NCBI GenBank assembly: GCA_021828925.1
Contig: JAJZCT010000046.1
Span: 1-11,456 of the forward strand
Source of the DNA: Planctomycetota bacterium
GTDB taxonomy: Bacteria; Planctomycetota; Phycisphaerae; WQYP01
Reading direction: 5' to 3'
Length of the DNA stretch: 11,456 bases
Part shown: one piece after another, positions 1 through 11,456 of the stretch
Numbering within the stretch: the first letter of the stretch is position 1
Layout: each line of letters begins with the position of its first letter
Notes under the pieces: generated by a model
What the model was told of the DNA's origin: nothing
What the model saw: only the letters and a program-made list of their open reading frames with translations
Database searches by the model: none
Made by a program: the position numbers and the translations under genes

Positions 1-269
1 GCTCTGTCACGCCTATAAATTAGGATTGACGGAGGGCCAGGGGGTTGTGGGCGCGAAGCGAGGAGGAAAGTGTATGGGAACATACATTGACGACGAGCGC
101 CAAAGCTCACGGCCTCCTGGCCCCCGCCCTGCGGGGTTGGCCGCAAACGCCCCATCTGCGGCGTCGCAGCAGCTCAAGGGGTCTACAGACCCGGTTTTCG
201 CCGCTGCTTCTTGCATCTGGAGCCTTTGCGGCCAATCAATCCTAATTTGTAGGCGTGGCAGAGCACTAG
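1..269 (+). mobile_element. MITE-like structured repeat element with terminal inverted repeats (copy 1)
   Basis: Seen directly: bases 1-29 and 236-264 are inverted repeats matching at 27 of 29 positions. The right side ends in GCACTAG; the left end probably runs just off the window. Inside are two further arms. Arm A pairs 34-52 with 105-123 and encloses a TGTATG-GGAA-CATACA hairpin (71-86). Arm B pairs 137-147 with 225-235 (11 bp, perfect) and is capped by GGGTC-TACA-GACCC (179-192). A diverged half copy sits at 2944-3030. No transposase is encoded. Inference: a non-autonomous element mobilised in trans; the CTAG end would fit TA-targeting (IS630/Tc1-like) insertion, but no target duplication can be confirmed because the left flank is missing. 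It supplies the first part of the reading frame of the gene that follows. Confidence 0.72.
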
Positions 270-2943: not shown

Positions 2944-3030
2944 TCTGTAAACCCATTGAGCCGCTGCGACGCCGCGGATGGCCCGTTTGCGGCCAATCAA
3001 TCCCACCTTGCAGGCTTGACAGAGCACTAG
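2944..3030 (+). repeat. Right-half copy of the left-edge element (copy 2)
   Basis: Bases 2986-3030 match 225-269 at 39 of 45 positions, including the identical terminal CAGAGCACTAG. Bases 2944-2996, read in reverse complement, match 137-189 at 47 of 53 positions. This copy therefore begins at the apex of arm B and runs to the right end; the left terminal repeat and arm A are absent upstream. Flanks after CTAG differ between copies (CCGCAG versus ATTGGA), so this is a dispersed element and not a duplication of the neighbourhood. It lies between the start of the GT2 gene and phoU. Confidence 0.8.
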
Positions 3031-10871: not shown

Positions 10872-11392
10872 TCACTGCGCCGGCGGCCCCATCGGCCCCG
10901 GCATTTCCGGCGTGCCCGGAAAAGCGGGGGCCGGCTTGAGTTTTACGAAACGCTCATTGGCGTGGCGACTGACCTTGATTGTAAACTGCTGGCCGCCCTG
11001 CTCCACAATGGCTCCCGCCGGAACAACTTCCCGCACCGAGTTAAACAGCGGATACAAATTGGCCGGTGGATTCTCCGCCATGATGGCAACCCGGCTTAAG
11101 GGAAGATTGGGCATGGCATTGTGCCGCTGATCCACGCCGTGCATATTCAACACCAGTTGTCCGTAAACATCGTTATCCTTGTACCCTGTGAGATGTTTAA
11201 TATCGGCAATTAACTCATCCAAACTCCCCGGAGCAAAGCGCTGCGGAAAATAAGTCATTTCCTGCTGAATAACGGAATTAGATGACCCAACCACCAGATT
11301 GTATGGGCCATCGGGGGTGTTGGCCGGAACCGGTATGTGCAGATACACATAATGTTCCGGCCCGCGGAAGGGCTTGATGGTTAAACGCACGC
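10872..11392 (-). CDS. C-terminal part of a probable SpoIVB-S55-peptidase-like exported protein (partial)
   Basis: Only the C-terminal ~173 residues are present; the rest is off the right edge. The segment reads as beta-rich: VRLTIKPFRGPEHYVYLHIP, PANTPDGPYNLVVGSSNS, then FAPGSLDELIADIKHLTG and NLPLSRVAIMAE, ending AGAIVEQGGQQFTIKVSR and a Pro/Gly tail (FPGTPEMPGPMGPPAQ). The order of a P-x-G-x-Y-x-L-x-V strand, a SLDELI helix and an LP-x-S segment resembles the C-terminal region of planctomycete SpoIVB-peptidase-S55-domain proteins as I remember them. The peptidase domain is not in view, so this is a tentative name. The frame appears to continue to 11441, but residues upstream of 11392 come from a perfect inverted copy of this same gene and an in-frame TAA closes it at the window end, so I end the trustworthy CDS at 11392. 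Confidence 0.5.
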
Positions 11393-11456
11393 GGAGTTTG
11401 GATGAGTTAATTGCCGATATTAAACATCTCACAGGGTACAAGGATAACGATGTTTA
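11164..11456. repeat. Perfect 64-bp inverted repeat at the right window edge (fold-back)
   Basis: Bases 11164-11227 and 11393-11456 are exact reverse complements over all 64 positions, separated by 165 bases, and the second arm runs to the last base of the window. The first arm is ordinary coding sequence of the partial CDS (around SLDELIADIKHLTGYKDND), so the second arm is an inverted copy of a gene piece placed inside its own upstream part. Perfect identity, lack of mobile-element features and position at the sequence end point to an assembly or amplification chimera. Confidence 0.9.

Follow-up and report, generated by a model that had tools for sequence, protein, structure and literature searches.

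A MITE-like element of Planctomycetota with IS630-type ends and a putative inverted pair of strand-specific hairpin modules

The window, i.e. the whole analysed stretch of 11,456 nucleotides from contig JAJZCT010000046.1 of a Planctomycetota bacterium, begins with a copy of a non-autonomous, MITE-like transposon that has ends of the IS630 (Tc1/mariner) type. Sequence comparison across the wider family indicates that the two interior arms of this element are inverted copies of one hairpin module, hereafter M, which lies on the plus strand in arm A and on the minus strand in arm B. Arm B behaves oppositely to arm A and the outer stem has no strand preference, which argues against selection on a single plus-strand RNA; selection therefore acts on an inverted pair of strand-specific modules placed between DNA-level terminal repeats.

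Three models were used: R1 describes the whole core, R2 describes arm A alone, and R3 is a joint module model (73 positions, 11 base pairs) that covers both arms of several families, including that of the window. The features of the window element are as follows:

1..29, plus strand: left terminal inverted repeat and outer stem, paired with 236-264 (27/29)
30..125, plus strand: arm A, the hairpin bearing M on the plus strand (RNA minimum-energy fold and conserved inner motif)
45..116, plus strand: first copy of M, a purine-rich inner motif around the tip hairpin (R3 61.8 bits, R2 90.2 bits; in the training set of both models)
127..136, plus strand: small CCC..GGG hairpin separating the arms (fold; 2/3 of its pairs invariant in 22 copies)
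137..235, minus strand: arm B, the hairpin bearing M on the minus strand (RNA minimum-energy fold)
148..220, minus strand: second, inverted copy of M (R3 minus-strand match, 59.3 bits; in the training set)
236..269, plus strand: right terminal inverted repeat including the CTAG (TA) end (inverted match, other copies and IS630 ends)
266..269, no strand: CTAG, presumed TA target duplication (right end; CTAG counts in 21 full copies)

The window element lacks its first five bases (CTAGT), as it is cut off at the window edge with 5 nt lying outside, and full-length copies elsewhere begin CTAGTGCTCTG or a close variant. With a length of about 275 bp, the element is below 500 bp and too short for a transposase gene. 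The plus-strand RNA fold of 1-269 reached -167.3 kcal/mol (z -11.7), and none of 200 shuffles was as good. The three-way junction, both arms and both tip hairpins described in an earlier note on this DNA are all present in the minimum-energy fold; the proposed outer stem is borne out (93% complementary), and the four G-U pairs that were pointed out in arm A (42-115, 45-112, 46-111 and 50-107) are present in the sequence. The GNRA-type tip loop described there occurs in the window and is not a feature of the family, since other copies carry GGTA, GGGA, GAGA and other loops. The notion that the whole structure belongs to the plus strand only fails, because the minus strand has a strong fold of its own (-147.0 kcal/mol, z -10.0). 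A search of Rfam 15 with the window and 18 related loci (E up to 1) gave no family match and three stray unrelated matches, all below the gathering score.

Two further observations concern the surroundings of the element in the window. The open frame 296-1558 meets no stop codon when it is followed back across the element, and it reaches the window edge (518 aa counted from base 2). Its gene probably starts at 296, and the frame had no Pfam match (E up to 0.001). At the other end, 11164-11230 and 11390-11456 form a 67-nt inverted repeat that is 99% complementary and ends exactly at the window end, and it is probably a fold-back artefact at a contig end.

The anatomy and the mobility of the element are well supported. 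Among genome contigs, the outer-stem pattern was found in 29 stretches, all from four assemblies titled as planctomycetes (isolates SulCav_PC08_64_54_21, ZJ5.bin40, JA4.bin8 and SKS5.bin63), on which the phylum label Planctomycetota for the sampled genomes rests. Whole-genome searches of these four MAGs returned 85, 23, 12 and 26 matches, which include cross-matches between the two ends and are not copy numbers. The outer-stem pattern had no match in viral contigs, and the element queries had none in plasmid records and phage records. CTAG stands on both sides in 12 of the 21 full copies with both ends visible, and on at least one side in 19 of them; IS630 is said, in the title of one paper, to prefer CTAG. 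An orthologous empty site was identified, in which L069, from another genome, is without the element that L050 carries, both flanks align and only the element is missing; a few bases have diverged at this junction, so the TA duplication cannot be read off directly. A comparison of L196 with L062 and L025 shows absence of the element between orthologous genes, without an exact junction, and the comparison of L034 with L194 gave no alignment at the junction.

Gene context at 46 loci, assigned by a crude ORF rule, comprised 15 tandem, 11 convergent and 8 divergent sites, 11 sites inside a long ORF and one at an edge. No orientation pattern emerged under this rule; this fits an element that is indifferent to orientation, without proving it, and a terminator role based on gene orientation was rejected for the same lack of pattern.

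The second, diverged copy announced in the earlier note exists, as a right-end fragment only: 2945..3030 on the plus strand holds the right terminal repeat and part of arm B in flipped form, with profile hits on both strands. Positions 2979-3030 match 218-269 directly (83%) and 2944-2996 match 137-189 in inverted orientation (89%), and the flipped part of arm B in 2944-3030 suggests the inversion of an arm.

Several variant arrangements were noted among the related loci. At L060, L061, L064, L119, L129 and L135 there are hairpins of about 43-45 bp that share the terminal repeats of the element, and by eye the forms at L119 and L060 fit an internal deletion at a GAG microhomology. Element ends adjoin with one CTAG in common at L044, L114 and L311, and at the last of these a CTAGTGCGCTGTTCC end comes immediately after an element with CTAGGAGCCTGTCCGAGTAA ends. 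At L106 / L161 (G001:C331), two element ends that face outward enclose an IS630 transposase region, with CTAG-TCCGGAGTTCA flanking it on both sides, as if it had entered the CTAG at which two elements meet. A second double-arm family with CTAGGAGCCTGTCCGAGTAA-like ends (L306-L313, L252 and L253) coexists with the window family in several genomes.

The ends of the element resemble those of complete IS630 transposons. Full-length IS630 elements with the same kind of ends about 1.2 kb apart were found at L354 (G287) and L353 (G199), and L352 (G116) is an IS630 with similar ends, one of them weaker, in a genome that also holds the element; the transposases of all three carry DDE_3, and HTH domains were confirmed as well. 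A DDE_3 locus, L163 (G004), is an internally deleted, broken IS630 with the ends CTAGTGCTCTGTCACG and GACAGAGCACCAG, and a search with the related transposase of L168 gave matches in 97 of 397 genomes of the class. The right end of the window element, compared inward over its first 33 bases, agrees with L352 at 24 and with L354 at 25 positions. The best pairs reached 26/33 (G116 element and L352), 28/33 (G044 element and L353) and 28/33 (one G001 element and L354), against 19-21/33 for mismatched subfamilies (19-20 for the G044 subfamily vs the other IS630 ends) and a mean of about 8.5/33, with a maximum of 18, for shuffled ends. The structured core was nearly absent from the IS630 loci tested, with one weak match among 14 sources (L339, E 0.02). 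The element is presumably moved in trans by IS630-family transposases. The earlier statement that the structure is not just transposon ends holds for the core and not for the outer stem, which resembles IS630 ends. ISY100, of the IS630/Tc1/mariner group, inserts almost only into TA and duplicates it (PMC2170065).

A longer partner carrying the ends of the small elements was also sought. In G681 all listed matches lie on one 8.9-Mb contig and comprise 19 end pairs 239-240 bp apart, three shorter pairs and some unpaired ends; those in G013 comprise three pairs of about 280 bp, four short pairs and some unpaired ends. A longer element with the ends of the small ones was not found among the listed pattern matches of G681 and G013, a search for IS-length partners that covered ends with up to 3 mismatches and so leaves room for more diverged ends. 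Mobilisation by Y1/RAYT as a general explanation is at most weakened by the absence of PF01797 (Y1) matches from G001, the draft genome with the most element matches; G002-G004 had 8, 7 and 5, and only distant pattern matches to the terminal repeat occur near these 20 loci.

Compensatory change is abundant in the structure. In 22 full copies and a 100-pair structure derived from the same 22-copy alignment, 96.9% of cells were paired and 30 pairs had changed on both sides; none of 500 shuffles reached any of the five measures, and slid structures gave at most 9 such pairs. Among 20 more diverse cores, 35 of 64 pairs had changed on both sides. In nine representatives, conservation of the inner, mostly unpaired motif exceeded that of the base helix in arm A (0.82 vs 0.66) and, slightly, in arm B (0.79 vs 0.72). 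Alignments A1 and A2, like the 81-copy tests of strand preference described below, excluded pieces at contig ends, truncated copies and copies that had been reached through their ends alone. The earlier idea of a mobile, MITE-like family under structural constraint agrees with these abundant compensatory changes and with the many matches collected from the four planctomycete assemblies.

The relationship between the two arms was evaluated in the wider family. R2 gave opposite-strand matches to the two arms (E up to 0.1) in 8 of the 42 sources (L201, L202, L292, L296, L277, L278, L280 and L304). Of 16 elements compared by local alignment, nine (from 7 genomes) had a higher score between arm A and the reverse complement of arm B than any of the 500 shuffles, and a tenth exceeded 487 of 500; in direct orientation z never rose above 1.9. 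R3 found opposite-strand arm pairs at L304, L300 and L211, in genomes outside its training set, and also at L306, L309 and L311, which are relatives of a trained arm. The window's own arms are not detectably alike (498 of 500 shuffles do as well), and their kinship rests on the wider family because direct similarity has been lost in the window subfamily.

For the test of strand asymmetry, helices were registered by Watson-Crick pairs only, so that RNA folding could introduce no bias, and each single mismatch was scored as it reads on the plus strand. The set consisted of 81 copies in six groups, split into nine for the site-level and energy tests. With three Watson-Crick flanking pairs, the ratio of G.T to A.C on the plus strand was 18:2 in arm A, 8:35 in arm B and 27:27 in the outer stem. 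Counted once per distinct family and site, the ratios for outer stem, arm A and arm B were 16:20, 11:2 and 7:14 with three flanking pairs, 17:23, 19:8 and 10:22 with two, and 24:27, 27:20 and 19:31 with one. The wobble asymmetry is clear at the level of cells, moderate at the level of sites and weak with the loosest setting. One contrary case is arm A of G013 (0:8 with one or two flanking pairs); arm A of the second family (TIR2fam) is even (7:7 and 6:7 with one or two flanking pairs), and departures from the commonest pair are nearly symmetric in the 22-copy alignment (G-U 31, A-C 26). The plus-strand preference read from the G-U pattern in the earlier note holds for arm A, with arm B opposite and the outer stem neutral. 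G.T is milder than A.C in single-stranded DNA as well, so the wobble test alone is no proof of RNA.

Folding energies follow the same division. In the window, the RNA minimum free energy of arm A is -57.8 kcal/mol on the plus and -38.9 on the minus strand, and that of arm B is -62.4 on the minus and -50.1 on the plus strand. Across the 81 copies, the plus strand gives the more stable arm A in 76 and the minus strand the more stable arm B in 65; the outer stem is nearer to even (plus more stable in 49/81), and arm B of G534 has no energy preference (1/3). With DNA parameters the strand difference in the window is smaller (plus vs minus: arm A -22.4 vs -17.7, arm B -25.8 vs -30.7).

Strand preference is also found where M stands alone. 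The single-M set comprised 30 loci with one R3 match in the stretch, 24 from the R3 search of the phylum and six earlier ones; loci for this test were chosen by a model that itself contains 11 base pairs, and three of them (L357, L359 and L375) are from genomes in which double elements occur as well and may have been cut by a contig end. The M strand was the more stable in 29 or 30 of the 30, depending on flank length, with a mean energy difference of -10.1 kcal/mol vs -1.0 in dinucleotide shuffles. At two flank lengths, G.T:A.C was 34:8 and 57:20 with one flanking pair, 25:1 and 39:5 with two, and 10:0 and 17:3 with three. When the mismatches with two flanking pairs were sorted by position, the ratio was 16:4 outside the motif and 7:0 inside, and G.T exceeded A.C individually at 17 loci, with the reverse at 4.

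M extends well beyond the window family. R3 matched 85 of 382 sampled genomes of the phylum (E up to 0.001, 12 candidates scored per genome) and R1 matched 26 of 392 (6 candidates per genome), the E-values of these covariance models being rough; BLAST with the window-type core found 19 of 397 genomes of the class (2 per genome). Among 30 loci from the R3 search, six have a nearby second M on the opposite strand (L355, L358, L361, L363, L365 and L381), and two of the remaining 24 are without enough flank for an inverted-repeat test. At the 22 testable loci, the flanking inverted repeat beats all 500 shuffles in 10 and 497-499 in three, and nine are not clear. The ends differ among most single-M loci, and those of L360 and L367 are alike by eye.

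The exchange of ends is best seen in G013. Core identity among its eight copies is 95.7% for the 23 pairs that span two end classes and 95.2% for the 5 pairs from a single class, while the outer 17 bases are 60% identical between and 85% within classes; the core carries four different matched end pairs (TAGAAGCTGTTTCA, TAGGGGCTCTAACAG, TAAGAATCTATCTCA and GAGCGTGTATGAAAG). The TAGAAGCTGTTTCA ends are paired either about 280 bp or 54-72 bp apart. The 54-72 bp hairpins were considered as ancestors that received the core and were rejected, as parts of the core edge survive in them and they resemble internal deletions. In G685, L221 and L305 are M-like hairpins bordered by runs of A and of T, in the manner of two-way terminators; R3 matches L221 (40.6 bits) and has no match in L305, which by eye appears to follow a stop codon.

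How M works was weighed among four readings. The leading one, to which we give an even chance, is that M acts as RNA in read-through transcripts. In this model, the non-autonomous IS630-ended element would be moved in trans by IS630-family transposases, and each of its two inverted copies of M, set between the terminal repeats, folds best and tolerates G-U on one strand. Because the M strands are opposite in arms A and B, a transcript running in from a neighbouring gene in either direction would have one well-folded M. M could then serve as an orientation-independent transcript signal, bound by a host RNA-binding protein, RNase or RNA polymerase, and might stabilise, process or insulate the mRNA, which would make insertions tolerable and allow M to be kept while the transposon ends are exchanged.

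A serious contender, if a rather unlikely one, is that M is a single-stranded DNA hairpin, one per strand, used by an enzyme of the host or the element in replication or transposition. The placement of M on opposite strands gives each single strand one copy, and folded DNA is also expected to favour G.T over A.C. REP hairpins have been proposed to serve RAYT/TnpA(REP) enzymes in this way. A precedent exists in REPINs, mobile doublets of two REPs in inverted orientation that show compensatory changes (PMC3116915). The element shares this design and differs from the RAYT-linked REPINs in its IS630-like ends, its 73-position module with a conserved inner motif and its length of about 275 nt, and no Y1 domain was found in G001, the richest of the four genomes, albeit a draft. 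In addition, the IS630-like ends point away from single-stranded DNA, as the relative ISY100 moves by double-strand cut and paste (PMC2170065), and the strand energy difference with DNA parameters is smaller in absolute terms.

It is improbable that the element is an ordinary IS630-derived MITE whose palindrome is kept by template switching or conversion in hairpins and whose interior is functionless. The even outer stem (27:27), compensatory changes that by eye often come in blocks, the lack of pattern among insertion sites and the occurrence of internally deleted copies would all suit such a palindrome. However, a neutral palindrome should leave the two strands of the arms alike, should not conserve the inner motif beyond the helices and should not share M with elements that have different ends, and the opposite was observed on all three points. 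The element is like the IS630-derived MITE RUP in being short, without transposase, present in many copies, TA-bounded and stably folded, with IS630-like terminal repeats; RUP of Streptococcus pneumoniae is described as a simple 107-bp unit with IS630-Spn1-like ends (PMC3049150), whereas the interior here consists of two inverted strand-specific hairpin modules common to elements with other ends. The earlier note implied a gene for a trans-acting small RNA, read from the plus strand and carried by a MITE; this is very improbable, because arm B prefers the minus strand in both wobble and energy and loci with a single M exist, even if arm A prefers the plus strand and the whole element is slightly more stable on it (mean -7.7 kcal/mol, 22 copies).

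The element was also compared with other repeat families. GTAG repeats are reported from the PVC group (PMC3733652), and the element resembles GTAG- and CGTC-tagged REPs as a high-copy palindrome. These REPs are single tagged stem-loops of 20-40 bp, whereas the element is TA-bounded and about 275 bp long; a GTAG-type tag is not present at the stem foot, and the element ends in CTAG-bounded IS630-like repeats. Pneumococcal BOX elements are likewise structured MITE-like repeats, some of them transcribed and with ends proposed to be ISSpn2-like (PMC3049150); they are set apart by description alone, in that the portion available does not describe them as inverted strand-specific modules. Among the literature matches listed, which covered few subscription papers, no title or abstract opening describes the element.

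MITEs are usually described as leftovers of insertion sequences, with matching ends and an indifferent interior. Here the conserved part is the interior and the exchangeable part is the ends. We tentatively propose, as a possibility on the doubtful side of even, that M is an RNA module, selfish or symbiotic and spread across the phylum, which has been adopted, singly or as an inverted pair, by many transposon ends; insertion in either orientation would then yield a transcript with one working M, and the module, not the transposon, would be the lasting lineage, changing its ends by exchange. The presence of M in 85 of 382 genomes between differing ends points to a function needed by the host or by the transposon lineage, and its relatedness across elements with different ends suggests that the hairpin itself does something. 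Inverted doubling is a simple way for a mobile element to ignore the direction of transcription.
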